A DNA stretch of 39,338 nt from Deltaproteobacteria bacterium. GTDB lineage: Bacteria > Desulfobacterota > Desulfuromonadia > Geobacterales > Pseudopelobacteraceae. Positions 8,744 through 30,686 of this stretch are shown in pieces. The translations under genes and the position numbers were made by a program. Position 1 is the stretch's first letter; each line of letters opens with the position of its first letter. Location of the stretch: positions 1 to 39,338 of the forward strand of contig JAJYBH010000016.1 of the NCBI GenBank assembly GCA_021779135.1, written 5' to 3'. Under the pieces are notes generated by a model. The model did not search any database. It worked only from the letters and a program-made list of their open reading frames with translations, and was not told the origin of the DNA.

Positions 8744-8792
8744 TCTCAGAAACTTCTTTACTTGCAAATTAAAACATCGATAATTGCAAATG
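8744..8792 (+). repeat. transposon left end with two TnsB-type binding repeats
   Basis: The terminus TCTCAGAAAC is followed by two repeats ending in TTGCAAAT: 8754-8769 and 8776-8791, 22 bases apart. The second lies in ATCGATAATTGCAAATG (8776-8792), found as a perfect 17-bp inverted copy at 30393-30409. GAAACTTCTTTACTTGCAAAT aligns with the right end at 15 of 21 positions. A candidate promoter (TTTACT, 16-base spacer, GATAAT) lies within it, five bases before the first tnsA ATG. Confidence 0.85.
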
Positions 8793-11383: not shown

Positions 11384-11385
11384 TT

Positions 11386-12258
11386 GTGGATACCTTGCTA
11401 GTTGAAGCTCAAGAACACCGGATTGCTGAAGTTCGCAAAGATTTCTGGGTTGGTTATACAACTGCGAAGAATATCCTGGCAGACCTTGATGATTTGATGA
11501 ACTATCCAAGGAAAATCAGGATGCCAAATCTTGCCATCATTGGAGACACCAACAACGGTAAGTCGTTCATTCTGGATAGATTTGTGGCAAAGCACTCCAA
11601 GCCTTTTGATCCAAATGAAGAGAACACAACTCTTCCAATCGTTCATATACGGCTTCGTGCAAAGGCTGACGAGACCAGATTCTATAATGCAATTCTGTCT
11701 TCGTTATTTGCAAGCGGGCCAGATCGGGAATCAGTAGACTCAAAACTCGATCGCATACATCGTCTCCTCTTTCAGTTGGAAACACAGGTGCTTGTCGTCG
11801 ATGAATTTCAACACTCAACCTGTGGCACAAAATCAAAGATCCGGGAGCTTCTTAACGCGGTAAAAAATGTTGGATCCGATCGTAAGATGTCAATTGTCAT
11901 CGGTGGCACTCCTGAGGTCCTGAATGCTCTCAGTTCTGATACCCAGATAGAGAATCGATTCATACCTCGGCACTTGAAAAGATGGTGCTTAGATGACGAG
12001 TTCCTGTCTCTTCTGGTTACAATACAAATTAAGCTCAAACTGAAAAAGCATTACGACTTAACTGATGAATCCATTGCCAAGCGGCTACTCATTCTATCAG
12101 GTGGCATCATTGGGGACTTGGTGGATTTGTTGGTATATCTTGCCGTGCACGCGATAAGAACAGAAGCCGAGGCCATAACAGAAAAGATGTTGAACATTGA
12201 ATATCTGAAGCAAATTGGCTGGACTCCGCCATCTCAACGAACGAAGTATGATAGATGA
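11386..12258 (+). CDS. tnsC: TnsC/TniB-type AAA+ target-selection ATPase
   Basis: A 290-aa AAA+ ATPase linking transposase to target selector. Walker A is IGDTNNGKSF, Walker B is VLVVDEFQHS, and sensor 1 is in IVIGGTPEV. It is short, closer to TniB and other compact TnsC proteins than to the 555-aa Tn7 TnsC. GTG 11386 is chosen because GAGGAG lies at 11375-11380; GTG 11380, overlapping the tnsB stop, is the alternative. It sits in the tnsA-B-C-tniQ operon, with its last 11 bases overlapping tniQ. Confidence 0.9.
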   Translation: MDTLLVEAQEHRIAEVRKDFWVGYTTAKNILADLDDLMNYPRKIRMPNLAIIGDTNNGKSFILDRFVAKHSKPFDPNEENTTLPIVHIRLRAKADETRFYNAILSSLFASGPDRESVDSKLDRIHRLLFQLETQVLVVDEFQHSTCGTKSKIRELLNAVKNVGSDRKMSIVIGGTPEVLNALSSDTQIENRFIPRHLKRWCLDDEFLSLLVTIQIKLKLKKHYDLTDESIAKRLLILSGGIIGDLVDLLVYLAVHAIRTEAEAITEKMLNIEYLKQIGWTPPSQRTKYDR

Positions 12259-13447
12259 AAGCGCGCCTCAACTATGGCTTTTCAGGCCAAAGCCACTTGA
12301 TGATGAGTTGCTGTCATCATGGCTTGTTAGGTGCGCGTATGCCAATGTCCGTAAATTGCACTCATTTTGCACAAGCACTTGGGGGACCAGACATCATTTC
12401 TGGGAAAGAGATCTTGACCGAACAACCGATATCCGGCTCCTTGCCGTATTGGCTGAGAGCACGAATACGGCAAGAAGCAGAGCATATTCGACAACGCTAG
12501 CAGCATATGAAGGTTTGCTGTTCGAGAGGTTTGTTTCAAGCGGCGGGCTTCCATGGGTGATGCCTATAGTCAAGAAGGGGAGGAAGCGGTTTGGGTATGG
12601 AATGCAATTTTGCCCCAGATGTCTTGCTACCGATGAAGTCCCCTATTACCGAAGGTCATGGCGACTATCATGTTTTGTTGTGTGCCCAGTCCATGGTTGT
12701 TATTTGCATGACTGTTGCCCCTCCTGTGGGGCTCCAGTAACGTTTCATCAAGGCGACTACGGAGAAAAGGTACTTCCCTATAACATTACGGCGACGGAAT
12801 GCAATAAATGCAGGCTTGATCGCAGGTCAATCCAGCCGGTCCAATGCAGCGGAAACGAACGTCAAAATCGCCTTATGGCGCTTCAGACGTCATTTGCAGA
12901 TGCCATCCGAACTGGTTGGGCACTGCAACCAGGTGGAACAGAGAAACATATCATGGCTCTGTCCTATTTCAGTGGGTTGCATGACCTCGTGCGCGCGTTG
13001 TGTTCAAGAAGCAGAACAGGCCGATTGCGTGAGGGATGTGAAGTTGAAATGGGTATTGAGGACCTTGAGGCTGAGTTGAGTATCATTGGTGCGTTCGATA
13101 GTTTCAGGTTGAAAGAACGGACAAAAGTCCTGAAGATGGCTGCATGGTTAATTGAACGTTGGTCTGATCGTTTGATAGACATTGCGCTTGAGGCCAACTT
13201 GGCAAGCTCGTATTTCTTCAGTTACAAGGCTTCTACGGCATATTGGTTCTATTCGGCCATAAACGAAAATCTGAACAGATCGCATTATCATCCGTCAATA
13301 CAGGAAATTAAATCCTGTAAATCGTTTCTTAAATCCAATGGTTTGTTGGTCAGCAAGAACAATGTTCATCGATGGTTGGGCAGGTATTTTGTGGATAAGA
13401 GGAGGTATGTCCTCAGGGAAAAGAGTGGTGATCGCCATAGCAATTAG
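12248..13447 (+). CDS. tniQ: TniQ/TnsD-family target-site selector
   Basis: A 399-aa TniQ protein. ATG 12248 gives the typical N terminus (LWLFRPKPLDDELLSSWLVR); a TTG 11 codons upstream is unlikely. The zinc-binding part has CPRC near residue 119 and CPVHGCYLHDCCPSCG about 30 residues later, then CNKC. The C-terminal part carries helix-turn-helix-like segments. TniQ/TnsD proteins bind a specific attachment site and recruit TnsC. Because the element sits in comM, the predicted attachment site is the codons for [11 protein letters not shown]; this is inference. A 113-base gap separates it from vsr, which is convergent. Confidence 0.88.
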   Translation: MIDESAPQLWLFRPKPLDDELLSSWLVRCAYANVRKLHSFCTSTWGTRHHFWERDLDRTTDIRLLAVLAESTNTARSRAYSTTLAAYEGLLFERFVSSGGLPWVMPIVKKGRKRFGYGMQFCPRCLATDEVPYYRRSWRLSCFVVCPVHGCYLHDCCPSCGAPVTFHQGDYGEKVLPYNITATECNKCRLDRRSIQPVQCSGNERQNRLMALQTSFADAIRTGWALQPGGTEKHIMALSYFSGLHDLVRALCSRSRTGRLREGCEVEMGIEDLEAELSIIGAFDSFRLKERTKVLKMAAWLIERWSDRLIDIALEANLASSYFFSYKASTAYWFYSAINENLNRSHYHPSIQEIKSCKSFLKSNGLLVSKNNVHRWLGRYFVDKRRYVLREKSGDRHSN

Positions 13448-13560: not shown

Positions 13561-13998
13561 TCACTTTTCACTGAGATGAGACTGTGTTATATCAAACACT
13601 AGATCATTTATTTTATTGGCTGAAATTTCGCACTCCCAAATCACGATAACCCTCCAGCCAGCAGCTTCCAAAGCCGCATAATTTGCTTTATCTCTCTCGA
13701 CATTCCTCATTAGCTTTTCTTCCCAAAATTCACGACGCGTCAATGGAATACGGGCTTGTTTGCAACCCTCATGAAAATGCCAAAAGCATCCATTTACGAA
13801 CAATGCAACTCGACGGGAAGGGAAAACGATATCTGGAGTCCCCGGTAAGTTTTTGCGGTGGATGCGGAACCGTAGGCCGGCCTTATGGAGGGAAGAGCGA
13901 ACGAAAGTTTCCGGAAATGTGTTCTTAGAGTGAACCCGTGCCATTATTTCAGATCTGGTCAACGGAGGGATATTAGGGCACTTTTTGTTTCGTTTCAT
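13561..13998 (-). CDS. vsr: very short patch repair endonuclease Vsr
   Basis: A 145-aa Vsr nuclease, which nicks next to the T of T:G mismatches made by deamination of 5-methylcytosine. Family motifs are seen in order: RSEIMARVHSKNT near residue 15, LPGTPDIVFPSRRVALFVNG with the catalytic Asp, CFWHFHEGC with metal-binding His/Cys residues, and FWEEKLMRNVERD. Length is normal. It is divergent from the cytosine methyltransferase at 14111, with 112 bases between the starts, the usual pairing of Vsr with a Dcm-type enzyme. Confidence 0.95.
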   Translation of the reverse strand: MKRNKKCPNIPPLTRSEIMARVHSKNTFPETFVRSSLHKAGLRFRIHRKNLPGTPDIVFPSRRVALFVNGCFWHFHEGCKQARIPLTRREFWEEKLMRNVERDKANYAALEAAGWRVIVIWECEISANKINDLVFDITQSHLSEK

Positions 13999-14110
13999 AT
14001 CTGATCCACTGTGTAAAGCAAATTGGTGGTTGAAATTCTCCTGGTGTTTGTACTAATTATATGACAAATTGGGTATATTACTATGGGGGGGTTAATGTCG
14101 AGGATTGCCG

Positions 14111-15415
14111 ATGGAACTTAAATTACCAACCCCAATTCGTTTCGTTGATGTCTTCGCGGGTTGTGGGGGCCTGTCATTAGGTCTCCTCAACGCAGGCTGC
14201 GAAGGCGTTTTTGCGATAGAAAAAAGCCCACTGGCCTTTGAAACATTGCGTACTAATCTTGTCGATGGCACTAATCACAAATTTAACTGGCCGACATGGT
14301 TGCCGAAGCAAGCGATGACATGCGAAGAACTGTTAAAGGAGTATCGGAAACAATTATTAAAGCTGAGAGGTCATATCGATCTTATTGTGGGCGGTCCTCC
14401 TTGCCAAGGTTTTTCGACTGCCGGTCGACGTGATCCTGCCGATCCTCGAAATAGAATGACCGAACAATATTTGGATCTGGTGGAGCTGCTTAAGCCCAGT
14501 TTTCTGGTCATTGAAAACGTGGCGGGCTTCAATATGAGCTTTGAAGGGGAAAATTTCAGTGAAGCCTTAGGAGTTGAAACAGAAAAGTCGACATACTCCG
14601 AATATGTGGCATCTCGGCTAGACGGATTCGGCTACCATGTCTCTCGTGGCATTGTGAACTGTGCTGATTTTGGAGTCCCTCAAAATAGATTGCGGTATTT
14701 GATGTTGTGCGAGCGGAAGAGATCAAAAGTGGTACCTCAGGACTTACGCCGTTTGCTTCAGGAAAGTAGGCTTGAGTTCCTTCTTGACCATGGCTTGCCC
14801 ACAGACCGTTTCACTACAGTAAAAGAAGCAATAAGTGATCTGGAAATAACGGGGAAAGAGCTGATCCCAAACGAGGAACCAGGTGGAAGGAGATTCAAAG
14901 AATCCAAGTACTGTCACCAAGTTGGAAAGACTGCTTATCTCAATTTGATGCGAATGGGAAGTGGGGATGAAGCTCCAAATAGCAGGCGACTTGCTAATCA
15001 CAGGGTTAAGACAATTGAGTATTTTAAACGCGTACAATCAATTTGCCGGCCAGGATTTTGTATGTCCATGGAGGAGCGGGCCATGGTGGGGACAAAGAAA
15101 CATTCGACCACGGTGTTGAATTCAACTTGGCCGTCTCCGACGATAACAACGCTACCGGATGATATAATCCACTACAGTGAACCTCGGATACTGACAGTAA
15201 GGGAACATGCAAGGATCCAGTCGTTTCCTGACTGGTTTGCGTTCCAAGGTAAATATACAACCGGGGGCAAACAGAGGAAGCAGGAATGTCCCCGATATAC
15301 GCAAGTTGGAAACGCTGTGCCGCCTTTACTGGCCACTGCTATTGGGAGGTTGATAAAGAAACGACACTTACAGATAGCGACGCGTCCAGTAAAGGATAAT
15401 CAAATAGATTCATAA
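14111..15415 (+). CDS. C5-cytosine DNA methyltransferase 1
   Basis: A 434-aa DNA (cytosine-5) methyltransferase. Motif I is VDVFAGCGGLSLGL, motif IV with the catalytic cysteine is GGPPCQGFS, motif VI is ENV (VIENVAGF), motif VIII is QNRLR and motif X is QVGNAVPP. The target-recognition region lies between about residues 235 and 355; its sequence specificity cannot be read by eye. ATG 14111 is chosen for the GAGG about eight bases upstream; TTG 14105 is possible. No restriction endonuclease of its own is adjacent. Its neighbours are Vsr and the convergent ATPase-receiver-HAD operon, so it may supply the self-marking function of that module. Confidence 0.93.
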   Translation: MELKLPTPIRFVDVFAGCGGLSLGLLNAGCEGVFAIEKSPLAFETLRTNLVDGTNHKFNWPTWLPKQAMTCEELLKEYRKQLLKLRGHIDLIVGGPPCQGFSTAGRRDPADPRNRMTEQYLDLVELLKPSFLVIENVAGFNMSFEGENFSEALGVETEKSTYSEYVASRLDGFGYHVSRGIVNCADFGVPQNRLRYLMLCERKRSKVVPQDLRRLLQESRLEFLLDHGLPTDRFTTVKEAISDLEITGKELIPNEEPGGRRFKESKYCHQVGKTAYLNLMRMGSGDEAPNSRRLANHRVKTIEYFKRVQSICRPGFCMSMEERAMVGTKKHSTTVLNSTWPSPTITTLPDDIIHYSEPRILTVREHARIQSFPDWFAFQGKYTTGGKQRKQECPRYTQVGNAVPPLLATAIGRLIKKRHLQIATRPVKDNQIDS

Positions 15416-15439: not shown

Positions 15440-15898
15440 TCAATCATTCCAGTAATCGCATTGCAAGCAGGTCACGCCATTCTCCCGCCACATTTTGACA
15501 ACTGATTCCCTGTCATCGACTACGAAAGCGATCTCTTCTCCTGACGCTCTTATCTCGTTGAGGATCTCCATCTTAATGATGTGATCCTCCCGTTTGTCTC
15601 CATCGATTCGCATAAACAAACGTTCAGCCTTCAATCCTTGAAAGGATATCCAACGGGCGCTTACTTCCCTGTAGCGCTCGGGGCGGCCGGTCACGACATA
15701 CATTGAATAAAGGCGAGATGCCTCAAGTACCTTGTACAATTCGACAATTGGGGGATTGGGGGGGTCTGAATCCATGTCTGCAAAAAAAGCATCCCAGGCT
15801 TTGGGGGTCTGCTGTAAAATTTTTCGCCGCCTGCTTACGTCTGCAAGTGTCCCGTCCAGATCAAATATTACGACTCTCGTTTTATTACTCTTGTCCAA
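15440..15898 (-). CDS. HAD-superfamily phosphatase resembling polynucleotide-kinase 3'-phosphatase domains
   Basis: A 152-aa HAD protein. Motif 1 DLDGTLADVS provides the nucleophile and general acid/base aspartates, motif 2 is VVTGRPE, and motif 4 is VDDRESVV. A DPPNPPIVELYKVL segment and overall length resemble the stand-alone 3'-phosphatase domain of T4-type polynucleotide kinases, which removes 3' phosphates from nucleic acid; a nucleotide phosphatase is the alternative. The TTG start at 15898 is supported by AAGGTG seven bases upstream, and overlaps the receiver gene by 14 bases. Translational coupling implies it works with the receiver and GHKL proteins. Confidence 0.75.
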   Translation of the reverse strand: MDKSNKTRVVIFDLDGTLADVSRRRKILQQTPKAWDAFFADMDSDPPNPPIVELYKVLEASRLYSMYVVTGRPERYREVSARWISFQGLKAERLFMRIDGDKREDHIIKMEILNEIRASGEEIAFVVDDRESVVKMWRENGVTCLQCDYWND

Positions 15899-16901
15899 TG
15901 GTTGGCACCTTTGTCAGGATTTCCGCTAAATGTAACCGGTGGTCACGAAGACGTTTGCGGAGGTCAAGGGTTCGAGCGTCGTCAAAGGGTTCGGGCACTC
16001 CCTCGTCGGGCTCAAAGGTATATACGCCACCATTGTTTGTTGGGCATTGATGCGCAAGCGCGTTCCGCCATTTGAGAAGGAACTTGATTTCCTCTATGAT
16101 TCCTTTCGCATCGGAAAGGGTTTGATGTTTCCCACAAAGGCTTGCGGCCGCCTCGACGCGACTGTAGCTGTCGAATTCACGGAGGCCTATCAGGCTATCG
16201 AAGTTTTTAGGTTCAAGTTCCTCCAACGACTTTATTGCCGCATAAACATTTTTCAGCAACTCATTGTCCTGGTCTTGAACCAGCTTTTTCACAGCCTTTT
16301 CCCTTTCCAGCATCTTTTTGAATATTTTCTTATGGTGCTTCTCCTTGTCGACTGCGCCAAGACTTTCATGTAGCTTGAGAAGCAGGCCGGAGAGTTGATG
16401 GTCGATATCCGCGACCCCCGCCATAACAATTCCCCTCATATTGGCAACGTCGACCACCTTACGTACGGTCAAATCGAAAACATCGCAAATTTTTCTTATC
16501 AATACCTCTTGGTCTCGATCTGAGAAAAAAACACCTTCGAGTTCCCTGTCGGCAGCGAGTCTTCTGAGGGTATGTGTAGGACTGCCAGAATAAAAGATTA
16601 CTTCCGTGAGGCAGTCGTGTTCTCGAACAGATTTGATAACATCGTCCCCTGTTTTACCGCTTCCGTCATTTTCCGTGGCATCTCCATCATGTTGGTTGTC
16701 CTCGGTTATCTGGTAATCGATAACCATCAGGTCGTATGCGTTTCCATCAACTTCTAACGCAATGTCCTCAGGGGATGTTTTGAAGGTGATGTCGAGGTCA
16801 AAACCCTGTTCCTGGACGTGTCTTAACAGGGTTGAACGGTCAAGGGATTCGATATATTCTTCATTGTCTTCAATCCAGATAATACGGTATGTGAGGTTCA
16901 T
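15885..16901 (-). CDS. receiver-domain protein with helical C-terminal domain
   Basis: A 338-aa protein. Residues 4-140 form a receiver domain: an acidic pair in IIWIEDNEEY, probable phosphoacceptor Asp62 in LMVIDYQIT, and a Ser switch residue in FYSGS. The usual Lys-Pro is replaced by FFSDRD, and an acidic insertion (HDGDATENDGSGK) follows the phosphorylation site. Residues 150-338 are helical with a charged coiled-coil-like stretch (KEKHHKKIFKKMLEREK) and no HTH, so it is not an ordinary transcription factor. It overlaps the upstream GHKL gene by four bases and is likely its phosphotransfer or signalling partner. Confidence 0.75.
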   Translation of the reverse strand: MNLTYRIIWIEDNEEYIESLDRSTLLRHVQEQGFDLDITFKTSPEDIALEVDGNAYDLMVIDYQITEDNQHDGDATENDGSGKTGDDVIKSVREHDCLTEVIFYSGSPTHTLRRLAADRELEGVFFSDRDQEVLIRKICDVFDLTVRKVVDVANMRGIVMAGVADIDHQLSGLLLKLHESLGAVDKEKHHKKIFKKMLEREKAVKKLVQDQDNELLKNVYAAIKSLEELEPKNFDSLIGLREFDSYSRVEAAASLCGKHQTLSDAKGIIEEIKFLLKWRNALAHQCPTNNGGVYTFEPDEGVPEPFDDARTLDLRKRLRDHRLHLAEILTKVPTIGQE

Positions 16902-19267
16902 TTTGTCAGCCTTATCCGCAGGGCAAACCCTTTTTCCGCCCCACGTCGCAATGAGATGTCGCCGTTAAGTTGGACCACGGTTTGCTTGACATGGTATAGT
17001 CCCAAGCCGGAACCGTTGGTAGTCGTAACGCCTCGTTCAAAAATTTTATCTGGCGGTTGGACCTCTTTTGAAAGCCCCGGGCCGTCATCCGTTATATCAA
17101 TAAGCAATTCATTTTCTGATGGGTGGCTCAAGTGGACATCAAATCGTTTGGCTCGCGCCCTTGCGCTATTGCTGGCTAGGTTGTCGAACACAATTGCGAT
17201 GTCGATGGGTTTGAAGCGCATTTCGAATTGTTCCAGGAAATCGCGAGTGACTGCAACCCTGAGGTTCTGGGCTGACGTGTCCTGTGCGACGTTCAATAGG
17301 TATTCTTGAATGAAAGTAGCCAGGTCTGCAGTAATCGTCTCCGTTTTTAGCCTGAAGTTGGCTTTTGTTGCAAAATTGGTGATTGCGATGATCTTTCTGG
17401 TGACGTTCAGAGCCTTTTCAATCAACTCGGAGGCCTTGCCCACATTCGTGCCTTCCTTTAGCTGGGTCAAAGCCTGGTCAAGGAAACCCTTGAGCGAATG
17501 GCCGCATATTTTTGATTGATGGTGCAGCAATAAAAGCTGTTCATGATCAGTTCCGGCCATGAGACGTGAAAACAAGATTTCAGACTGCTGAGTGGCTACT
17601 TGAGATTGAAGGTTTTTTTTGGCCTGTGCGATGTTTTTGGCTGCGCTTGTCAAACGTTCAACCTGTTTTGTTTTCCTGTCTACATCTTTTCGTGCCTTTT
17701 GCAATTCGGATTTTTGACGATTGAATTCACTTTGTATCCTGTTTAACGCCAATTTGACGTTTTGGCCGACATTCCCATCAAACGAGTTGAATTTATCGAG
17801 AATGTGGCTGACTTCTTCTTCCCGTTCACGTGACAAGGCGTCGAGTACGTCCGGGGAAATTTCCAACTCCAACGTTCGCGCAGGGGTTGCGCCGACAATC
17901 CTCAGTACATCCAGGGCAATTCGCCTTCGCTTGCTATCGCCAGACTCCTTGTAGACTTCACTTTCAGGCATTTCCTGATCACCAGGAATCACCCCAGTCC
18001 TTAGTTTAACTCGAATTGGTTCCGGAACGGAGTCCCAATCGAGTCCATCTACGACGAATCTTTCAAGCTTGGTCAGGAGCTGTATGAAAAAACTATTGGA
18101 ACCACGAGCAAGCTGAATGAATGATTGGTCCCGCACGACTCCTTCACGGTTTGAAACGATCCGGAATGAGTTGTCGGTGTCTTTGACGTTGATCAATCCG
18201 AGGAGTTCCCGGTTGGCCAAATAGCGGGTTGTGCCTTGGCTCTTCCTTACATCGAGTTGCAGCCAGTCGTTGTTCCGATCTCCATACGGCGGTACGCGGT
18301 AGCCGTTGACAAACAGGAATACAGCTCCAAATTCCACCAAGTTGAGACCTGTTTGGCGTTTAAAATATGCTTTTTTGTAAGGATTCATGTAGTGGAGCAC
18401 TACGTGTATATTTTTTAGCTTGTTGAGGTCCAGATTTTTTTCCACTAGTCGGTAAATGCGATTCCCGTCATGGAACATCTCTGTTGTAATTGTCTCTCCT
18501 AGGGGGTCAATTCTCGATTCGATGTATGTTGTGTTGAATTTTAATTTTGTGAATATTTTGTTTTCAATAATGCCATTAATTTGATTGTGCAATGCCTCTT
18601 TGCCGTCTTGACGAGATTCGGCCTCTGCAACAAGTTTTATTTTTACGCTCCCTTTGTCGAATACGGCTATTGGGTTGACGAATCGTTCGAGATTCCTTTT
18701 AAGTAGCGTCAGTTTTTCTCGACTCCATTCCTGACGAAGGTCCGTAATTGCCAGCATCGTACCTACTTCCGGGGCATTTCTGCCAAGGAAGGCTTCCGCA
18801 TCCTGATCTGAAACCTCTGCGACCGTGATATTTACTTTTTGAATTGTTGATTCTAGACGAACCTTGTTTTCAAATGCTGTCCAATCGACTGTCAGGTGGA
18901 GCAGTGGACCACCACTTCGTCTTGTGAACATGTCGAGTTTCCGGCCAAGCCTGTCACAGGCGAATCGACCAACCCCCTTGTTACCGGCAAGGACCCTGTC
19001 GCCCATCACGGAGTGTTTTTTTTCGGAATAGGCTATATTCAGCCACTTGTTTTTAATATCCAACATTGACATGCCGGATCCATCATCTTCTACGATGACT
19101 GATGCCCCTGATGCGGCAAAATGGATGCTGACGAGGTTTGCCCCGGCATCGATCCCATTTTTCACAAGTTCAACAACTGCAATGTTGTCATCGTTTATGA
19201 GATCTTGCCCAATAATATTTTTTAGATCTGCGTGGGTTATGAAGTGTAGGTTTTGGGGTTTGGCCAT
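16898..19267 (-). CDS. double GHKL ATPase: MORC/paraMORC-like N-terminus plus histidine-kinase-like C-terminus
   Basis: A 789-aa cytoplasmic protein, no membrane segments seen. The N-terminal GHKL fold has an N box (AVVELVKNGIDAGA, residues 31-44), G1 (VEDDGSGMS) and G2 (GNKGVGRFACDRLGRK), as in MutL/Hsp90/MORC ATPases. After a middle region and a coiled coil (RIQSEFNRQKSELQKARK), a DHp-like helix (LLLLHHQSKICGHSLKGF) leads to a second HATPase with N box FDNLASNSARARAK, G1 DITDDGPGLS and G2 GSGLGLYHVKQTV. Prokaryotic MORC/paraMORC ATPases are known to associate with restriction-modification loci. ATG 19267 is chosen because the family N terminus begins there; GTG 19324 would add 19 residues. 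It heads the three-gene operon. Confidence 0.8.
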   Translation of the reverse strand: MAKPQNLHFITHADLKNIIGQDLINDDNIAVVELVKNGIDAGANLVSIHFAASGASVIVEDDGSGMSMLDIKNKWLNIAYSEKKHSVMGDRVLAGNKGVGRFACDRLGRKLDMFTRRSGGPLLHLTVDWTAFENKVRLESTIQKVNITVAEVSDQDAEAFLGRNAPEVGTMLAITDLRQEWSREKLTLLKRNLERFVNPIAVFDKGSVKIKLVAEAESRQDGKEALHNQINGIIENKIFTKLKFNTTYIESRIDPLGETITTEMFHDGNRIYRLVEKNLDLNKLKNIHVVLHYMNPYKKAYFKRQTGLNLVEFGAVFLFVNGYRVPPYGDRNNDWLQLDVRKSQGTTRYLANRELLGLINVKDTDNSFRIVSNREGVVRDQSFIQLARGSNSFFIQLLTKLERFVVDGLDWDSVPEPIRVKLRTGVIPGDQEMPESEVYKESGDSKRRRIALDVLRIVGATPARTLELEISPDVLDALSREREEEVSHILDKFNSFDGNVGQNVKLALNRIQSEFNRQKSELQKARKDVDRKTKQVERLTSAAKNIAQAKKNLQSQVATQQSEILFSRLMAGTDHEQLLLLHHQSKICGHSLKGFLDQALTQLKEGTNVGKASELIEKALNVTRKIIAITNFATKANFRLKTETITADLATFIQEYLLNVAQDTSAQNLRVAVTRDFLEQFEMRFKPIDIAIVFDNLASNSARARAKRFDVHLSHPSENELLIDITDDGPGLSKEVQPPDKIFERGVTTTNGSGLGLYHVKQTVVQLNGDISLRRGAEKGFALRIRLTK

Positions 19268-19623
19268 ATTTTTTTCCAATTCGTTCCAAAATAATGCCTG
19301 GGCAAAGTATAGACCGCTCGTCACGCCCAGATTTGGATAGGGTCATCATTTCTTAACAGATGGACTGCGATGTCCTAAATCGCTGTATTGTTATCACGCA
19401 CCAATGTAATATACCATTTGAGTGAAACATGCCATAAAGGAATGTCACATGGGATATTTGAAGGATATTAGGACGGTGCTATTCATATGTGTCCCGAATG
19501 GTACCGACCGGGGCAATTGCCAATGCGGCTTGACACTTGACGAGTCATTAGTCAATATTGCCTGCGTTGGAACCAAGCTTGGTCCGAGTTAACCATCCTA
19601 ATAGATTATATACGGAGATCGAT
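19268..19623. promoter_or_regulatory. divergent intergenic region between GHKL operon and restriction gene
   Basis: A 356-base gap without a convincing gene. Toward the restriction gene a TTGACA at 19530-19535 is followed at 18 bases by AATATT (19554-19559), a weak promoter candidate. Overlapping it, TTGAC (19537-19541) and GTCAA (19551-19555) form an inverted repeat that could be an operator. Promoters for both divergent units must lie here. Confidence 0.35.
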
Positions 19624-20421
19624 ATGAGTAAGGAAGCAAAAATACATGAGCTGGTCAAGTTGATTGGTGCATTTCTACCTTTGCCAAAATCTATCGAGCC
19701 TTTTCCTGATATAAAACACAAAACCATAAATAAGCTAGCTGAACAAGCGGCAGATTTATCAAATGACTTGGATCCAGTAAAATTACCACCCTATATATTT
19801 GATCCAACTGCTCCAGAGATGCTTGGGAAAGTCACAGCGTGCGCATTGCTGCTGCAAGACAAAAATGCATTGGTTGATTTAAGGGATAATCGTTTCTATG
19901 GTGCCGGAATATACGCCATTTATTTCAGGGGCAGTTTCTTCGCATATTCTGGGTTGTCAAACACGGAAACACCAATATACATTGGAAGCGCCGAACCGGC
20001 GAACAAAATGGCGGGAGATGTAAGGAAACAAGGCCAAGCTATTTGGAAAAGATTGTCGGAACACGCCAAAAGCATTAGTAGGGCGGGCAACATTGAACTT
20101 GAAGATTTCGAATACAGATACTTAGCTGTCAAAAGTGGCATGCAAAAGGCGGCTGAGGACTATCTCATCAATCATTTCAAACCGATTTGGAACAAAGAGG
20201 TGAAAATTTGCTTTGGTTTTGGAAAGCACGGGGATAGTGCAGAAACTCGAAAAAACAAACGGTCTCCCTGGGATACTCTTCACCCTGGGAGGGATTGGGC
20301 GGATGAGTCCACTCATGACCAAAAAGGTGAGAGCATGATAGTAGATGCCATCAATATGCATCTCAACAAGTTACCGCCTATAGAAATCGTCGATTTCAAA
20401 TCACTGCTATTGCCAGTCTGA
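19624..20421 (+). CDS. Eco29kI-family GIY-YIG restriction endonuclease
   Basis: A 265-aa type II restriction endonuclease of the GIY-YIG nuclease family. The GIY motif is GAGIYAIYFRG, the YIG-equivalent is TPIYIGSAEP, followed by an Arg/His helix (IWKRLSEHAKSI) and a Glu/Asn region (AAEDYLINHFKPIWN). The family-typical FGFGKHGDSAETR and SPWDTLHPGRDWA segments follow. Eco29kI cuts CCGCGG, and this enzyme is predicted to do the same. ATG 19624 has GGAG six bases upstream. An N-terminal extension of about 50 residues makes it longer than the 214-aa prototype. Its cognate methyltransferase is at 20924. Confidence 0.9.
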   Translation: MSKEAKIHELVKLIGAFLPLPKSIEPFPDIKHKTINKLAEQAADLSNDLDPVKLPPYIFDPTAPEMLGKVTACALLLQDKNALVDLRDNRFYGAGIYAIYFRGSFFAYSGLSNTETPIYIGSAEPANKMAGDVRKQGQAIWKRLSEHAKSISRAGNIELEDFEYRYLAVKSGMQKAAEDYLINHFKPIWNKEVKICFGFGKHGDSAETRKNKRSPWDTLHPGRDWADESTHDQKGESMIVDAINMHLNKLPPIEIVDFKSLLLPV

Positions 20422-20728
20422 CGGAGGTTATCATATATAATTGCGTCCATACGACAACGTCCTATCTTTCCTCTTTGATTTCGCCAGTCCCCCAGCCCCG
20501 AGTACGCCAGTAATAACTTCGGAATCCAGTTCAACAAAAATCGTACAACTTTTCTGTTTATGACATGTTTTGTCGCATGGTCATGTTATTTAGGCTAACC
20601 GAATTATATATTTTATGTCTATGGAATGCTGCAAGCCCGGATCGTCTTGTACTGCTTGACTTTTTAGTGTAAATCTAGTACGTATAAATAACCGCGGAGT
20701 GCCGCGGAAAACCGCGGAGGACTCGGCG
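20422..20728. promoter_or_regulatory. intergenic region before the RHH-methyltransferase operon
   Basis: A 307-base gap after the restriction gene with no convincing gene. A weak promoter candidate is TTGACT (20656-20661), 17-base spacer, TACGTA (20679-20684); TATAAA at 20683-20688 is another possible -10. The CCGCGG array follows immediately downstream. Confidence 0.4.
20692..20717. promoter_or_regulatory. three CCGCGG sites at exact 10-bp spacing (operator-like array)
   Basis: CCGCGG occurs at 20692-20697, 20702-20707 and 20712-20717, so one face of the helix carries three copies. The array fills the space between the -10 region and the regulator's ribosome site (GGAGGA 20716-20721), overlapping the latter by two bases. 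CCGCGG is the sequence recognised by Eco29kI, to which the adjacent endonuclease is related. Tandem sites one turn apart are also what ribbon-helix-helix regulators commonly bind. Confidence 0.75.
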
Positions 20729-20911
20729 ATGGGAAAAGATGGGAAAAACGCAGTTCGAGTGACGACGACGCTGACAAAAGATCAAAATGCATCATTGGAA
20801 AGACTTGCGAAGAAAAATGGTGTCAAAAAAGCATGGTTGGTCCGTAGGGCTGTCGAAATGGCTATCGAGGAAGCAAATGGTGGTCCACTTCTTCCGTTGA
20901 ATATAGAATAG
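20729..20911 (+). CDS. ribbon-helix-helix (CopG-like) regulator of the R-M operon
   Basis: A 60-aa protein with the RHH pattern: a beta strand (AVRVTTTLTKDQ), helix A (ASLERLAKKNG), and helix B (KKAWLVRRAVEMAIEEA). ATG 20729 is chosen for GGAGGA at 20716-20721, seven bases upstream. RHH proteins bind DNA as dimers on tandem sites through the beta strand. It is 12 bases upstream of the methyltransferase and directly downstream of the CCGCGG array, so autorepression of regulator and methyltransferase is the simplest role. Classical R-M control proteins are HTH proteins, so an RHH one is less usual. Confidence 0.8.
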   Translation: MGKDGKNAVRVTTTLTKDQNASLERLAKKNGVKKAWLVRRAVEMAIEEANGGPLLPLNIE

Positions 20912-20923
20912 GAGGCGGTCTCC

Positions 20924-22087
20924 ATGAGGAGTATTGAACTTTTTTCCGGATGTGGGGGGCTTGCGCTGGGACTCTCCATGGCGGGGTTTCGGCATGAGAT
21001 GATGGTTGAGTGGAACAATGACGCCTGCTCGACTATCTTCCATAATCGACGTCTTGGTGTTGACCATGTTGCACACTGGCCTATCCGCCATGCAGATGTA
21101 CGTGGAATAGATTGGAGTGAAGTCGGCAATGAGCTGCATTTGGTCGCAGGCGGTCCGCCTTGCCAACCGTTTTCAATCGGGGGGAAGCACACTGGTAACG
21201 AGGACTCGCGTGACATGTGGCCACAAGCCATACGCGCGGTTCGTGAACTGATGCCAAACGGATTTGTCTTTGAAAATGTAAAAGGCCTATTGCGCCCTGT
21301 CTTCTCCGATTACCTCAATTGGATAACCTCTCATCTCGCATTGCCGCATCTTGAGCGGGCTGAGAATGAAACATATCAGGAGCACCTCATAAGACTAGGA
21401 CGCAATTTGGATGAAGCCGTTTATGATGTCAGGATATTGAAGGTGAATGCCGCCGACTATGGTGTTGCACAAAAAAGACATCGAGTTATCATTTTTGGTG
21501 TCAGGAGGGACCTAAACATCCCAATCACCCTCCTCCAACCCACGCATTCAAGGGAAAGACTCCTTTGGGATCAGTGGGTGACGGGGCACTATTGGGCGAG
21601 ACACGGGATATCTGTGCCACCGGATAGTCAGATTCCGACTTCAGATAATTTGATGGTGCAAAAACTCAGAAAACAAAATACCCCGCCTGCTCATAGTCCA
21701 TGGGCGACAGTTCGTGATGCCCTCCATGGACTCGGAGAACCCAATGGGAAGATGAATCATAATTTGCAAGAAGGTGCTCGCGTTTACACAGGTCATACCG
21801 GGTGCCCCCTTGATCAACCCGCAAAGGCATTAAAGGCGGGTGCCCACGGCGTTCCAGGCGGCGAAAATATGATGGTTCGAGACGATGGCACGGTTCGCTA
21901 CTTCACAGTTCGTGAAGCGGCACGCCTCCAGGGGTTGCCGGATGAATATACGTTCCCCGGGTCTTGGACTGAGAGCATGAGGCAACTTGGAAACGCAGTA
22001 CCGGTAAAACTCGCCCAAGCGGTGGGAAACATGATGGCGACGATGTTAGAGCAAGATGAGGCAATCCTATTTCGCAATGCGGCATAA
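20924..22087 (+). CDS. C5-cytosine DNA methyltransferase 2 (M.Eco29kI-like)
   Basis: A 387-aa cytosine-5 methyltransferase with motif I ELFSGCGGLALGLSMAG, catalytic GGPPCQPFS, ENVKG, motif VIII QKRHR and motif X QLGNAVPVKL. Length is close to the 382-aa M.Eco29kI. AGGAGG just upstream gives strong initiation. It is predicted to protect CCGCGG against the upstream nuclease. The order R, then regulator plus M under a separate promoter, means methyltransferase output can be tuned independently of the nuclease. It is clearly different from methyltransferase 1 in its recognition region, so the element probably makes two distinct methylation marks. Confidence 0.92.
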   Translation: MRSIELFSGCGGLALGLSMAGFRHEMMVEWNNDACSTIFHNRRLGVDHVAHWPIRHADVRGIDWSEVGNELHLVAGGPPCQPFSIGGKHTGNEDSRDMWPQAIRAVRELMPNGFVFENVKGLLRPVFSDYLNWITSHLALPHLERAENETYQEHLIRLGRNLDEAVYDVRILKVNAADYGVAQKRHRVIIFGVRRDLNIPITLLQPTHSRERLLWDQWVTGHYWARHGISVPPDSQIPTSDNLMVQKLRKQNTPPAHSPWATVRDALHGLGEPNGKMNHNLQEGARVYTGHTGCPLDQPAKALKAGAHGVPGGENMMVRDDGTVRYFTVREAARLQGLPDEYTFPGSWTESMRQLGNAVPVKLAQAVGNMMATMLEQDEAILFRNAA

Positions 22088-26116: not shown

Positions 26117-26866
26117 CTATTCAACCCACAACATTGTCAGAACAGTATCGTAGTCGCCTAATTTCACGGAGTATTCTAGTATTTCTCCACTTTCTGGTTG
26201 GGAGCCCGTAAACCATTCATCAGAAGCTACAGCCATGAATTCATCTGGAATCGGTTTTCCTGATAAGTTGTTCCTTGCATATGTGTTTGGCAATTTACCG
26301 AAATCAAGCTTATAGGCAAAATGTTGACTTGGCCTGAAATACCTCATCATGCCGTTTGCGGATACGACAAGCATAACTTCATGATCGGTAACATCAACAA
26401 ATCTCGTAGTAGCGGCAGTAAGGGTGACATTATACTCGTATGCAAGTTCTGAAATATTATCAAAACCTGGATCAAGTTTTTTGCAACGGGGTTTGAAGAT
26501 TTCTAGGGGCATTAACCATTCAGCAGCAAATTGGTTGGCCTCAATCTCTTGTGGCTTTTTGCTGTTGTCCATTAGGTCATTATTTGTGCATCTGAAGGTA
26601 TTAATTTGTGAATGACTGGGTATGGTCACATGACCCAGTTCATGTGCAGCGGTAAACTGTTTTTTCCCTTCTTCAGGAATATTACTAGCAACCATCACAC
26701 CCGTATTTCCGTTTAATCGCAGTGTCATCCCGAGGCAACCATCTAGTGGGCACTCCCGGTAACTAACATCTAGAAAGTCGAAGGCGGCCGTAGGCACAAA
26801 CGGAGGAGCAATCAAACCTACACGTTTCCTGAGCTCAGATGCGTAGAATTCAGTTCCCACGAGCAT
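26117..26866 (-). CDS. ImmA/IrrE-type metallopeptidase
   Basis: A 249-aa zinc peptidase. The active site is FTAAHELGHVTIPSH (HExxH), and the third ligand region is EIEANQFAAEWLMP, both typical of ImmA/IrrE (COG2856). These enzymes cleave a paired XRE repressor after a stress signal. Its ATG directly abuts the stop of the XRE gene, so the two are one operon. The C-terminal 100 residues are beta-rich and may sense a ligand. Its target is predicted to be the repressor just upstream. Confidence 0.9.
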   Translation of the reverse strand: MLVGTEFYASELRKRVGLIAPPFVPTAAFDFLDVSYRECPLDGCLGMTLRLNGNTGVMVASNIPEEGKKQFTAAHELGHVTIPSHSQINTFRCTNNDLMDNSKKPQEIEANQFAAEWLMPLEIFKPRCKKLDPGFDNISELAYEYNVTLTAATTRFVDVTDHEVMLVVSANGMMRYFRPSQHFAYKLDFGKLPNTYARNNLSGKPIPDEFMAVASDEWFTGSQPESGEILEYSVKLGDYDTVLTMLWVE

Positions 26867-27223
26867 TCAACCCTTCCGTTGTTTCAACATGTCCATCATC
26901 ATCCGAATTTGTTCCTTATCCGATGGGGAGAGGTTTGTGAGATCTCTGAAAAGTAGTTGAGCCTCTGGATTTTGCAGCAAATCACTCAAATCAGTTTCCT
27001 CAGATCGTCCTACCAAATAATCTACTGAAACACTAAGTGCAGCGGCTAACTTAATCAGAACTCCACTGCTTGGAGTCCGTTCTTTTGAGAGAATTTGGCT
27101 TAATGCTCCAGGAGTGATACCAGCCATCTTGGAGAGTTGTGCTTGGTTGACCTTAAGGTCCTCCATCTTTTTTCGGATTTTGTCAGTCAGTATTGCCAGG
27201 TCAAGTGTCTCGCTCATAACCAT
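26867..27223 (-). CDS. XRE-family transcriptional repressor
   Basis: A 118-aa protein. The HTH_XRE domain covers about residues 10-72: KVNQAQLSKMAGITPGALSQ is the helix-turn-helix, and SGVLIKLAAALSVSVDYLVG the closing helices. The C-terminal 40 residues (LLQNPEAQLLFRDL...) are a likely cleavage/dimerisation tail. A minus-strand TTGTCA, 17 bases, TATACA promoter upstream would give a nearly leaderless message. It is paired with ImmA and divergent from the E2-like cassette, with TTCACAnnTGTGAA palindromes between. Confidence 0.9.
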   Translation of the reverse strand: MVMSETLDLAILTDKIRKKMEDLKVNQAQLSKMAGITPGALSQILSKERTPSSGVLIKLAAALSVSVDYLVGRSEETDLSDLLQNPEAQLLFRDLTNLSPSDKEQIRMMMDMLKQRKG

Positions 27224-27262
27224 ATTGTATACAATCCAATCCTCTAATTGACAACATAAATA

Positions 27263-27276
27263 TTTACAGCTGTGAA
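27263..27276. promoter_or_regulatory. operator-like palindrome O1
   Basis: TTTACAGCTGTGAA is a one-mismatch version of TTCACAnnTGTGAA, exactly 50 bp from O2 and just upstream of the XRE promoter. Confidence 0.6.
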
Positions 27277-27285
27277 TTATTGTCC

Positions 27286-27314
27286 TTGACTTGGTAGCTG
27301 ACAGTGATTATATT
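27286..27314 (+). promoter_or_regulatory. sigma70-type promoter for the E2-like cassette
   Basis: TTGACT (27286-27291), 17-base spacer, TATATT (27309-27314), directed to the 56-aa gene at 27372. O2 overlaps the end of the -10 and the start point. Confidence 0.7.
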
Positions 27315-27326
27315 CACAACTGTGAA
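27313..27326. promoter_or_regulatory. operator-like palindrome O2
   Basis: TTCACAACTGTGAA has perfect 6-bp arms around a 2-base centre and overlaps the -10/start site of the E2-like cassette promoter. A further half site TTCACA lies at 27335-27340. Confidence 0.7.
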
Positions 27327-27371
27327 CATAAATATTCACAAAATAAATGTTTATAGAAAGGAGTAGAAGAC

Positions 27372-27542
27372 ATGGCAAAAAACCCGCCTACAAGAGATGG
27401 GCACAGACATGGTGCAGTGAAGGATCGAAGCCAAGTCTACAACCCGGTGATAGACCATTGGACCAAACGAGGACCAGATGGTAAGTTTATGGATCAAAAA
27501 GCCGATGACGAACCTTTTAAAGGGGTTCGTAAAGAGAAATGA
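27372..27542 (+). CDS. 56-aa basic protein at the head of the E2-like cassette
   Basis: A short hydrophilic protein with AAGGAG at 27358-27363, eight bases before the ATG. It contains GAVKDRSQVYNPVIDHW and ends PFKGVRKEK. I have the impression that short proteins with a GAVKxRSQVxNP...FKGVRKE pattern recur in bacteria, but cannot name a characterised function. It is the first gene behind the repressed promoter and so is likely part of the same system as the E2-like protein. Confidence 0.7.
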   Translation: MAKNPPTRDGHRHGAVKDRSQVYNPVIDHWTKRGPDGKFMDQKADDEPFKGVRKEK

Positions 27543-27589
27543 ACATCAGCAAGCGTTTCAAATCAACTTACCGGAGTGGAGATTGATCT

Positions 27590-28489
27590 ATGGTTATGCC
27601 GATCACAATCTTGAAGGAAATCGGGCATCAACTTGATGAGGATATTTTTCCACGAATCAAGAACGGCGGAATTGTAACGCCCGGCGAATCCGCTACATGT
27701 TCACCATCTTGGGCAGAGGAGAATAATGATGAAAGACAAGGAAAGAGTAGACACCCAACCAGACCATGGCCAGGGCCCATCAGAGGGCAAAGGCAAACCG
27801 ACAGACCACGGACGTCCGGTGCCGCCTCATCGTCCGTCAGCGCAGAGCTTCAAGCCCAGTACGAAGGAGAACTGACAGCGATATCCGAAGCGTACCCGGG
27901 GGCCAAAGTTTGGCACCAAACAGAAGGTCTCTGGTTGATAACAGAGAGCATACTTTTGCCAGGAATCTGGCAAAGGGCAGTCTTCCTCACCGGAATCCCC
28001 TTCGATCGGTCGCGCATTGTACGGAGCTGGGGATTCTGGATGGGGATGCCATTAAAATATCCAGAATGGATAGGCCCAAGACATACGAATATGCCAGACG
28101 GATCTATATGCGGATTTGAACCTACTGACGGAACATGGAAATTGGGTGACAATCTTCTCGTTCTGCTAGATCTCTATACCCTTTGGGCTTTGCGGCATCT
28201 TCACTTGCAGATCTTCAAACGGTGGCCAGGGCGGCAGGTTGCGCATTTCGTTCATGAAAGACTGACGGAGCTTAAGTCAACAGAACATTGCGGGTGTGGT
28301 TCTAACAATATTTACAGCGATTGTTGCCGAGACAAAGATCTTAGGAGTGACCGCGTACTGGAAGCTGTAAAATTCATCAGTGCCGGAGGCGCAATGCGTT
28401 TTCCCCCTAATGCCGTCATGAACTTTATCAATATACAAGATAACCCACCTAAAATCGATGAATTACTGCCGATGGTACAATTGATTTGA
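27590..28489 (+). CDS. prokaryotic ubiquitin-E2-like protein with C-terminal SEC-C zinc motif
   Basis: The open frame from ATG 27590 (GGAGA seven bases upstream) is 299 aa. From about residue 85 it looks like a UBC (E2) fold: a first helix (AELQAQYEGELTAISEAYPG), beta strands, then RHTNMPDGSICGFE, which matches the E2 active site HPNxxxxGxIC with candidate catalytic Cys174, His165 and Asn167. Trp183 follows, then helices (LLVLLDLYTLWALRHLHL). Residues 233-246 (HCGCGSNNIYSDCC) form a SEC-C zinc-binding motif. The first 84 residues are doubtful: they are Arg/Pro-rich and overlap another small reading frame, so the true start may be internal. No E1, JAB peptidase or ubiquitin-like gene was recognised nearby. 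Confidence 0.7.
   Translation: MVMPITILKEIGHQLDEDIFPRIKNGGIVTPGESATCSPSWAEENNDERQGKSRHPTRPWPGPIRGQRQTDRPRTSGAASSSVSAELQAQYEGELTAISEAYPGAKVWHQTEGLWLITESILLPGIWQRAVFLTGIPFDRSRIVRSWGFWMGMPLKYPEWIGPRHTNMPDGSICGFEPTDGTWKLGDNLLVLLDLYTLWALRHLHLQIFKRWPGRQVAHFVHERLTELKSTEHCGCGSNNIYSDCCRDKDLRSDRVLEAVKFISAGGAMRFPPNAVMNFINIQDNPPKIDELLPMVQLI
27726..27875 (+). CDS. possible 48-49-aa hydrophilic protein overlapping the E2-like frame
   Basis: A separate frame starts with two ATGs (27726, 27729) after GAGGAG at 27716-27721 and ends at TGA 27873-27875. The product (MKDKERVDTQPDHGQGPSEG, then Pro/His/Lys-rich) looks like a natural small disordered protein, more so than the Arg/Pro-rich text of the overlapping E2 frame. 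If real, the E2-like domain would start near its end by coupling or frameshift. Coding status is uncertain. Confidence 0.4.
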   Translation: MMKDKERVDTQPDHGQGPSEGKGKPTDHGRPVPPHRPSAQSFKPSTKEN

Positions 28490-28646: not shown

Positions 28647-30395
28647 TTAAATCCCCCTCAACAGCGAATCTGCAGAGAAAATACGATCAAGGAAGTGACC
28701 AGGCTTCAGATGCTCATTTTTCTTCCAAGAGTGTTTCAACTTTGACCAGGAATGTTTTGTATTGGTTTGCAAGTATGTTGCATTATTGGAAATACACTCC
28801 TCAACCGCAGCGAGGATATCCTCACCAGGCACTTCAGTATCAGGATTCCAAATCAAAAGTGTCGAGCACTCCCCTGAACGCTTCTGCTCAAACTCAATAA
28901 GATACTTAGTTGAAAATTCTTTCACTACTTTCGCAACGATAAATCTCCTACGTATTTCATTTGCCTTGTCGATGTATGCCCATGTTTCGTCATGGCCATG
29001 TTCGGGAAGGTTATAAATGGCACGTGGATCGTTGTCTTCAGGCTCCTCTTGGATTTCTTCGGTAAGTTTCAAAAAAGATACACTGGCGAGACCGGCAGCG
29101 TTTATCAATTGCAATGAAGCTTGAATTCGGCAGAATGCTGCAATTTCAGCAGAGTTTGCTGGATCCAGGCTGCCATCATCAGGTTGAATGAGTATATGAT
29201 GGCGATCTGAACCAGATTCCCCTTGGCTACTAGTTGACCCCTCCGAATGAGTCGTAATCACTTCTCCGATGGCTGTGCCTCTCTTATTAATTTCCTTCTT
29301 TATAGCAACTTGCCTTACTTCATTGAAATGAGGGAATCTCTTAGCAAGATCATCATCATAACTCATCTCAACGCCCAAGTTTGGGTTAACTGCCCCGGTG
29401 TTCATCTTTACAGGCTGATCCGGAGGATTATTTACATAGATTTTAGCTCGACCGTTGTCACTGCCAGCTCCCCCATCACTTCCTGAGCCGACTGTAGAGA
29501 TATGAGCTACAACTTTAAAGTTCGCTTTTCTGTTTGTACTAATAATTCTGGTGATTACTGTCTGCTTCCCAAATTCATTTTCATACTGCTTGAATGACGC
29601 ATGGATACGGGTGTTCCCATCAAAAGGTGGAAATGCAACAAAAGGTCTTTCTGGTTCAGCCCTAGATATTATTGCTACTTGCTTTGGGATCAACTGTGCC
29701 CGCTTAAGATCAAAACCCTCAGATATAAAGTTTGCCAAAAAAGTTGCAGTGAGCTCCGTTACACCAAGACGTGGCTTTATGGAAACAATGCCTGTTTTCT
29801 TGTCAAAACCGGATTCTTTAGGGTCATAAAGCCAACGCCCAGGGTCAAGTATGCGATCGCTAGTCATGACTCGTGCGATATTTGAAGCATAGCAATAGAA
29901 AAATCTTAAAATTTCAGCACACGGAATTATGATACCGTGAGGATTGTTGTTATGATTGATTGCAAGTAAGTAGGAGTCTGCCTGAGGCTCTTTATAAAAG
30001 TCCCAGTGATATTTCATTGGGATTAGTAATCCCTTATCGCTCTGGTCAACCCTAGAAAAGGCTTCAATTTTGTTCTTCGTCAAATCAAGGTGGATGTCAT
30101 CAGTACGATGGAGATGGTTTGGGAGAGCCTCGGACGGTATTAAATATCCATCTTTGAGAATTGCCTCAATGTACAGTACTGGGAATTGGCCGATTGGGAG
30201 TTCAGCACGTTTGTATTCAAGTGGGAGGGCGTATTCGTATTTCTCTGGACCGGCAAGTTTTCCTATGTAAACGTATATTGTGACGTTGTCAGAGCCATCA
30301 TTCATTTTTGATAATCGACCAAACCAAATTACTTTCCAATAGCCAGCAAAATCGAGACATTTGAAGTAATATGCTTTCTTGACCGTATCTGCCAT
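28647..30395 (-). CDS. tnsE: TnsE-like transposition protein
   Basis: A 582-aa protein reading inward from the right end. Its layout follows Tn7 TnsE: a beta-rich N terminus (YWKVIWFGRLSKM), a helical section (IIPCAEILRFFYCYASNI), a central VAFPPFDGNTRIHASF block like the Tn7 FSFDPPPMQGWKLHV, a long acidic linker, and a C-terminal domain where RRFIVAKVVKEFSTKYLIEF parallels RVIKAVGVQRNGSEFVLLEV. The Tn7 sequences are recalled, not aligned by program. TnsE directs Tn7-type insertion into replicating DNA and conjugal plasmids. Unlike Tn7, the gene is not with tnsABC-tniQ but at the opposite end, and its ATG lies in the terminal repeat. Confidence 0.65.
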   Translation of the reverse strand: MADTVKKAYYFKCLDFAGYWKVIWFGRLSKMNDGSDNVTIYVYIGKLAGPEKYEYALPLEYKRAELPIGQFPVLYIEAILKDGYLIPSEALPNHLHRTDDIHLDLTKNKIEAFSRVDQSDKGLLIPMKYHWDFYKEPQADSYLLAINHNNNPHGIIIPCAEILRFFYCYASNIARVMTSDRILDPGRWLYDPKESGFDKKTGIVSIKPRLGVTELTATFLANFISEGFDLKRAQLIPKQVAIISRAEPERPFVAFPPFDGNTRIHASFKQYENEFGKQTVITRIISTNRKANFKVVAHISTVGSGSDGGAGSDNGRAKIYVNNPPDQPVKMNTGAVNPNLGVEMSYDDDLAKRFPHFNEVRQVAIKKEINKRGTAIGEVITTHSEGSTSSQGESGSDRHHILIQPDDGSLDPANSAEIAAFCRIQASLQLINAAGLASVSFLKLTEEIQEEPEDNDPRAIYNLPEHGHDETWAYIDKANEIRRRFIVAKVVKEFSTKYLIEFEQKRSGECSTLLIWNPDTEVPGEDILAAVEECISNNATYLQTNTKHSWSKLKHSWKKNEHLKPGHFLDRIFSADSLLRGI

Positions 30396-30459
30396 TTGCA
30401 ATTATCGATAGTTTATTTGCACATATCGTTGTCGTTGGCAAATAGCGATGTTTCCGAAA
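30393..30459 (-). repeat. transposon right end with three TnsB-type binding repeats
   Basis: Read inward from TTTCGGAAAC, three related repeats follow at about 20-bp intervals: ATCGCTATTTGCCAA (30435-30449), ACGATATGTGCAAAT (30415-30429) and ATCGATAATTGCAAAT (30394-30409). The last, with the next G, is the perfect inverted copy of 8776-8792. Three sites right against two left is the kind of asymmetry known for Tn7 ends. Confidence 0.85.
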
Positions 30460-30464
30460 TCCTT
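30460..30464. repeat. 5-bp target-site duplication, right copy
   Basis: TCCTT, identical to 8739-8743; part of the AAA-AAG-GAG codons of comM. Confidence 0.85.
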
Positions 30465-30686
30465 TTTTATGTCGGCCGGGGCCAGGTTGGCGGTGATGCG
30501 GCGGGCGGGGAAGTCGTAGCCGGAATTTTTCAACGCGGCCCGCACGCGGTCCTTGCTCTCCTTGACGGCACCATCCGGGAGCCCCACGGTCGCAAAGGCC
30601 GGCAGTCCCGGAGCCAGATCAACCTCTACGTCAACCAGGATGGCATCAATGCCGATCAGTGCGCTGCTGAGGACTTTTGCGAGCAT
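30465..30686 (-). pseudogene. comM: comM 5' fragment
   Basis: This encodes the first 74-75 residues of ComM ([15 protein letters not shown] ... [17 protein letters not shown]), the Lon-like S5 fold at its N terminus, with GGAGG upstream of the ATG. The open frame continues 18 codons into the transposon before stopping. It joins in frame with 7436-8743. It is 71 bases after pgeF on the same strand. With the helicase part cut off it should be non-functional. Confidence 0.95.

Follow-up and report, generated by a model that had tools for sequence, protein, structure and literature searches.

Descriptions of bacterial ubiquitin-like conjugation have been of E1-E2-Ubl(-JAB) cascades, with the single E2s of CBASS as the odd case. 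The window, by which we mean the whole 39,338-nucleotide stretch of DNA analysed here, encodes an E2-like protein of 299 amino acids, and the question raised by this locus is what such a protein acts on, or with, when the usual companions are not recognised beside it. The initial annotation had placed it in an inducible transposon cassette and pointed to one or two very small hydrophilic proteins upstream as the possible substrate or modifier. The cassette has the following features.

26117-26866, minus strand: CapP-type M78/IrrE-like peptidase (PADLOC capP, E 7.8e-54; Pfam Peptidase_M78, E 7e-13).
26867-27223, minus strand: CapH-type HTH repressor (PADLOC capH, E 6.5e-17; Pfam HTH_3, E 8e-13).
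27224-27371: divergent promoter region; two imperfect palindromes that resemble operators, TTTACAGCTGTGAA (27263-27276) and TTCACAACTGTGAA (27313-27326), were found by reading the sequence and may serve as CapH operators.
27372-27542, plus strand: 56-aa protein of the PDC-S38 family, an accessory nearest the promoter in Cap-regulated operons (PADLOC PDLC05010, E 4.4e-29 over the full length; neighbourhoods).
27590-28489, plus strand: E2-like protein, 299 aa (AlphaFold2, VIA-align, alignment of relatives).
27729-27875, plus strand: 48-aa disordered protein overprinted on the E2 gene in its +1 frame (70 of 70 loci; ATG and Shine-Dalgarno, codon-phase and stop tests).
28082-28111, plus strand: E2-type active-site motif HTNMPDGSIC (H165, N167, C174), with H, T, N, D, G, S and C invariant in the alignment.
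28289-28327, plus strand: SEC-C-type cysteine cluster CGC...CC, with C234, C236 and C245 invariant and C246 nearly so; it lines up with the SEC-C cluster of single E2s from CBASS.

The E2-like protein consists of an N-terminal piece (residues 1-35), a disordered linker (36-78), a UBC domain (approximately 80-230), the SEC-C-type cluster (234-246; C234, C236, C245 and C246 in a CxC...CC arrangement) and C-terminal helices; RHTNMPDGSICGFE corresponds to residues 164-177 and includes H165, N167 and C174. Scans with Pfam, NCBIfam and PHROGs assigned it to no family, neither the Prok-E2 models nor the SEC-C model of Pfam matched the window's own sequence, and a PDB sequence search with the E2 profile returned chance matches only. 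The PADLOC CBASS E2 models were merely grazed by the window's protein (E 0.02-0.05) and were matched by several of its relatives at 3e-4 to 1e-2. These relatives were collected with an alignment seeded with five loci and scanned against 84,980 species genomes, which gave 66 loci; about 70 related loci are considered in total, mainly proteobacterial (alpha-, beta-, gamma- and deltaproteobacteria, with one MAG labelled Flavobacteriales). Residues H165, T166, N167, D170, G171, S172, C174, C234, C236 and C245 are invariant in 49 aligned full-length relatives, an alignment that left out loci whose active site escaped the regular expression (HTNFPHGSIC, HTNYYPNGSIC and HTNYPDGSMC), and because of this invariance the active-site motif and the cysteine cluster are not regarded as chance matches. 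The active-site pattern is kept across the roughly 70 loci with rare variants, a conservation for which the search itself partly selected, because both scan patterns (WIGPRHTN and the DGSxC block) lie within this region, the other parts of the protein being outside the scan. The E2 region is frameshifted in loci L045, L053 and L070, which are pseudogenes or assembly errors. The family is rare in the window's own phylum, with one full-length and one partial match besides the window in a 395-genome sample; in viral contigs 36 stretches fit a pattern and none was confirmed, and a phage collection gave no match.

AlphaFold2, run on the 49-sequence alignment, gave a model with mean pLDDT 85.2 and pTM 0.80, in which pLDDT exceeds 90 across most of the UBC domain, residues 1-35 and approximately 80-299 are mostly confident and residues 36-78 are disordered. 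Foldseek alone found nothing significant for this model (first E2 at E 1.2), and VIA-align on Foldseek's top 1000 chains ranked first 8yjy_B, from the Serratia CdnG-E2 complex (Z 8.4, 126 residues, 3.0 A), with 8hsb_B, likewise Serratia CdnG-E2, also in the first rows (Z 7.7); UBC, UEV or UFC1 domains make up nearly all of the 50 rows listed. Structure prediction and comparison establish a UBC fold for the E2-like protein. An hhalign comparison with four CBASS single E2s carrying SEC-C tails aligned both the active-site region and the cysteine cluster (E 5e-4, at a probability of only 31%); the profile link runs end to end. The protein is likely to be related to the CBASS E2-SEC-C proteins. 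One of these four is from the window's own genome, where a CD-NTase lies beside an E2 with a SEC-C-type tail, as in the CBASS single-E2 type (locus L073, G000:C217). The assignment made by the initial annotation is thus upheld on the two points named there as able to overturn it, the fold and the conservation of HTN...C in homologues, and the E2 active-site pattern and C-terminal SEC-C motif that it had read from the sequence are both present.

The description as an inducible transposon cassette also proved correct. The cassette is cargo of a Tn7-like element encoding TnsA-like, TniA/TnsB-like, TniB and TniQ proteins (8784-13447 and 30402-30686), which sits in comM/yifB, interrupting that gene, and carries nearly identical inverted repeats at its ends (about 8766-8793 and about 30386-30420); its inducibility would come from the divergent CapH/CapP regulator pair. 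Two R-M-type systems share the element with the E2 cassette. The window holds two cytosine methylase modules (13561-15415 and 19558-22087), one with a Vsr-type endonuclease and one with an Eco29kI-type restriction enzyme, and a row of genes on the minus strand (15440-19324) for a GHKL ATPase of 808 aa with two HATPase domains, a 338-aa protein and a HAD/PNKP-like phosphatase, which may be another defence module. A 584-aa ORF without a family match (28647-30401, minus strand), lying at the element's right end, resembles TnsE in position and length.

Regulators of the same kinds accompany the relatives. They were detected in 64 of the 70 loci (25 with HTH and M78 genes, 29 with a fused XRE-M78 gene and 10 with a WYL gene), nearly all on the opposite strand, and by eye two of the remaining six loci also carry HTH and M78-like genes, so that regulators are present in at least 64 of 70. 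HTH/M78 and WYL-kind regulators respond to ssDNA, and derepression by DNA damage is known for characterised CapH/CapP pairs (PMC13373217); by analogy, the divergent regulators would put the cassette under DNA-damage induction. In two alphaproteobacterial fused XRE-M78 regulators (L004:3629-4570 and L005:3687-4628) EExxH replaces HExxH, and these proteins may sense without cutting. Gabija, SoFic, AbiH and R-M genes are among the neighbours of the E2 gene in other genomes. That no E1, ubiquitin-like or JAB gene adjoins the E2 was borne out in about 70 loci by phmmer searches with Ubl, multi-Ub/E2 and E1/JAB proteins as queries, the one exception being a weak E1-like match (3.7e-5) that lies 4 kb from the E2 in locus L006; phmmer searches with four CD-NTases likewise found no CD-NTase near the E2 in 70 loci. 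The absence of an E1 holds only locally, because four ThiF-family (ThiF-like) genes elsewhere in the window's own genome could act as E1 in trans.

Which protein, then, is the partner of this E2? The initial annotation favoured the 56-aa protein as a dedicated substrate or modifier and proposed a neighbourhood survey of its family together with E2-like genes, and that survey spoke against it. The protein is a clear member of the PADLOC single-gene candidate PDC-S38, which adjoins this E2 in 3 of 70 loci and is widespread without it, and it was accordingly rejected as an obligate partner. PDC-S38 occurs in 12 of 395 genomes and in 60 plasmid records. Just before it, in most loci read, stands an HTH/M78, fused HTH-M78 or WYL regulator, or a CapK/CapS-like ATP-binding/HTH pair, two plasmid loci being without a Cap-type regulator directly adjacent; downstream lie Bub-type genes (Multi_ubiq with Prok-E2_E; E1-N/ThiF), a CD-NTase/SAVED operon of CBASS, or nothing obvious. 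It recurs immediately behind Cap-type or WYL regulators in defence operons that are otherwise unrelated (L137, L138 and L140, and the Bub-type operons L107, L109 and L110, which it heads), and since it trails Cap-type regulators in such different operons, PDC-S38 probably belongs to the control module and goes with the regulator, not with this E2. A YegP-like gene downstream of CapK/CapS is a parallel to this position (PMC13373217). The upstream slot is filled by a Pfam-confirmed DUF2188 protein in 4 of the 70 E2 loci, and a GSYRSA-repeat protein lies downstream in 12 Rhodobacterales-type loci; the accessory small proteins are thus variable and the overprinted ORF is constant.

This overprinted ORF, the strongest feature of the locus and one that the initial annotation missed, is the second of the small hydrophilic proteins, and here the earlier description was only half right: the 56-aa ORF does lie upstream, and the other is nested inside the E2 gene in the +1 frame (27726/27729-27875). 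It encodes 48 amino acids over the region of the disordered linker between the N-terminal piece and the E2 domain, with in-frame ATGs at 27726 and 27729 and a Shine-Dalgarno sequence AGAGGAG at 27715-27721; in the model the N-terminal piece is confidently folded, and space for a second protein is provided by the disordered linker. When all neighbouring ORFs were clustered, the small ORF came up in 70 of 70 loci; it lies within the E2 gene, in the +1 frame, unless frameshifts break the latter. Its consensus opens with M and a few variable residues, continues with R.DPQPDHGKGPPDGKGRPVDHGRPVPPHRSSAQ and ends in a variable tail. Strong matches were found at the E2 locus only, among 25 E2-bearing genomes and 297 genomes of the window's phylum. 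No secondary structure is predicted for it (pTM 0.19), and its consensus across loci has neither a conserved C-terminal Gly nor an invariant Lys. The protein is therefore not a ubiquitin-like donor of the canonical kind, and no obvious acceptor lysine is present. As a ubiquitin-like modifier it was rejected, having no beta-grasp and no conserved C-terminal Gly and being predicted to be disordered.

Because shadow ORFs, whether in other frames or on other strands, are frequent in these mostly GC-rich loci, the presence of a nested ORF proves nothing by itself and was not taken as evidence; start codon, Shine-Dalgarno and codon-phase tests were used instead. The ORF starts with ATG in 50 of 50 distinct loci and has a Shine-Dalgarno sequence within 18 bases 5' of it in 49 of 50, against about 10% at control positions, and frame 0 is open across the overlap in all 50, against 2.8 expected were the +1 protein alone constrained (11 loci have an open third frame), these counts being non-independent owing to the relatedness of the loci. 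Differences in the overlap pile up at the third codon position of the +1 frame (0.62 per site versus 0.33 and 0.30, at the larger divergences), and amino-acid identity across the same bases is 69.5% in the +1 frame, 50% in frame 0 and 45% in the third frame. These patterns support the view that both frames are coding and that the +1 ORF is translated from its own ribosome-binding site and under protein-level selection. The commonness of shadow ORFs would allow the ORF to be untranslated and conserved only because the frame-0 linker or an RNA structure is constrained, but frame 0 is the less conserved frame there and is predicted to be disordered, and with the starts, ribosome-binding sites and third-position variability as they are, we consider this exceedingly improbable. 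The overprinted protein is the better partner candidate of the two small proteins.

The analysis suggests that the E2 and the overprinted small protein form a two-protein system of the conjugation type, so far undescribed, that serves in stress or against phages and lacks the usual genes for E1 and ubiquitin. CapH would repress the divergent promoter, and ssDNA from damage or phage replication would activate CapP and lead to CapH cleavage, as in characterised CapH/CapP pairs. The transcript would encode PDC-S38 and then the E2-fold enzyme, whose disordered N-terminal linker would be read in a second frame to yield the 48-aa disordered protein in fixed linkage with the E2. Most likely, the E2 would act through the invariant C174 on the co-made partner, or would couple this partner to host or phage proteins, and the outcome would be growth arrest or phage inhibition. 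The fold, the overprinted partner and the Cap-type control context are well supported; derepression by DNA damage at this locus, conjugation in the sense of a covalent reaction with the partner, and a defensive outcome are what we infer. A stress- or phage-inducible two-protein cassette, in which the E2 acts on or with its overprinted disordered partner to bring about arrest or phage inhibition, is our preferred reading, held tentatively at a little under even chances. Its more specific form is possible but rather doubtful: a minimal immune system that conjugates proteins without an E1, its E2-like enzyme and a dedicated disordered substrate or modifier coming from overlapping frames and being co-expressed on DNA damage or phage attack. 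The Serratia CBASS single E2 is said, in the work of Yan et al. 2024, to process and conjugate the cyclase without an E1, which would be a precedent for an E1-less E2.

Other roles for the two proteins have to be weighed against this cassette. Without a conserved Gly or Lys in the partner, simple ubiquitin-like or lysine-acceptor chemistry is disfavoured, which makes an inhibitor or adaptor role the main rival: the 48-aa protein could be an antitoxin-like governor of a harmful E2, or its chaperone, and not a substrate, with the shared DNA keeping the stoichiometry. Its obligate one-to-one linkage with the E2 and absence elsewhere, its disordered, binder-like composition and the tight, hair-trigger type of the regulators all fit such a role, but small antidotes are usually encoded by separate ORFs and would not need overprinting; we think it somewhat unlikely.

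The E2 could also take a ubiquitin-like donor (a ThiS/MoaD-type or Bub/Bil-type Ubl) from an E1 encoded elsewhere, the small protein then being a scaffold or target adaptor. Canonical E2 chemistry requires an E1, the four ThiF-family proteins of the same genome could supply it, and true Bub-type operons are headed by PDC-S38 as well. We nevertheless judge this unlikely, given that no E1, Ubl or JAB was recognised in the sampled loci save the weak match in L006, and that in the window's own genome no Prok-JAB rose above the cut-off. It is still less probable, and in our estimate a slim chance, that this E2 is left over, decayed or on its own, from a single-E2 operon of CBASS type II and binds without catalysis, as UEV proteins do. 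The CBASS single E2 is its closest fold and shares the E2 and SEC-C architecture, but the catalytic His, Asn and Cys are invariant over divergent relatives, a CD-NTase occurs in none of the 70 loci, and the stable gene structure with its conserved overprinted ORF and N-terminal piece is unlike decay.

The cassette appears new as a variant of bacterial E2-type systems, and the overprinted partner is its most unusual feature. In the open literature on PDC-S38 and on E2 proteins with SEC-C, and in family libraries and defence databases up to PADLOC 2023, no description turned up of this E2 family, of the overprinted gene or of the system they would form. A stable E2-only unit in alpha-, beta-, gamma- and deltaproteobacteria, which stands behind DNA-damage-type regulators and is in every case accompanied by a disordered protein from an overprinted frame, offers a small, genetically clean system for asking what a lone E2 can do, and it adds a well-supported example of a conserved bacterial overprinted gene.

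Among known systems, the CBASS type II single E2 (Serratia CdnG-E2, 8yjy/8hsb; doi 10.1038/s41564-024-01684-z) shares with the window's E2 the UBC fold and an operon without E1, and some CBASS single E2s have a similar C-terminal SEC-C-type cluster. Sequence similarity is low (14% identity to 8yjy_B), and, unlike CBASS type II, the window's E2 has no adjacent CD-NTase or SAVED/effector gene and has instead an extra N-terminal piece and linker together with the overprinted 48-aa partner. Bub/Bil operons have the E2 fold in common with the cassette and are under the same Cap-type regulators (PMC13373217), and some Bub-type operons (L107, L109 and L110) are likewise headed by PDC-S38, whereas no Ubl, E1, JAB or Metal_CEHH genes were recognised at the window's E2. 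With CapH/CapP- and CapW-controlled defence operons the cassette shares the PADLOC capH and capP matches, the divergent promoter and the downstream cargo, but its cargo is an undescribed E2-only unit. Finally, PDC-S38, listed by PADLOC as a single-gene candidate, looks here and elsewhere like a regulator-linked leader gene, and so is recast as a component of the module that regulates defence operons under Cap control.
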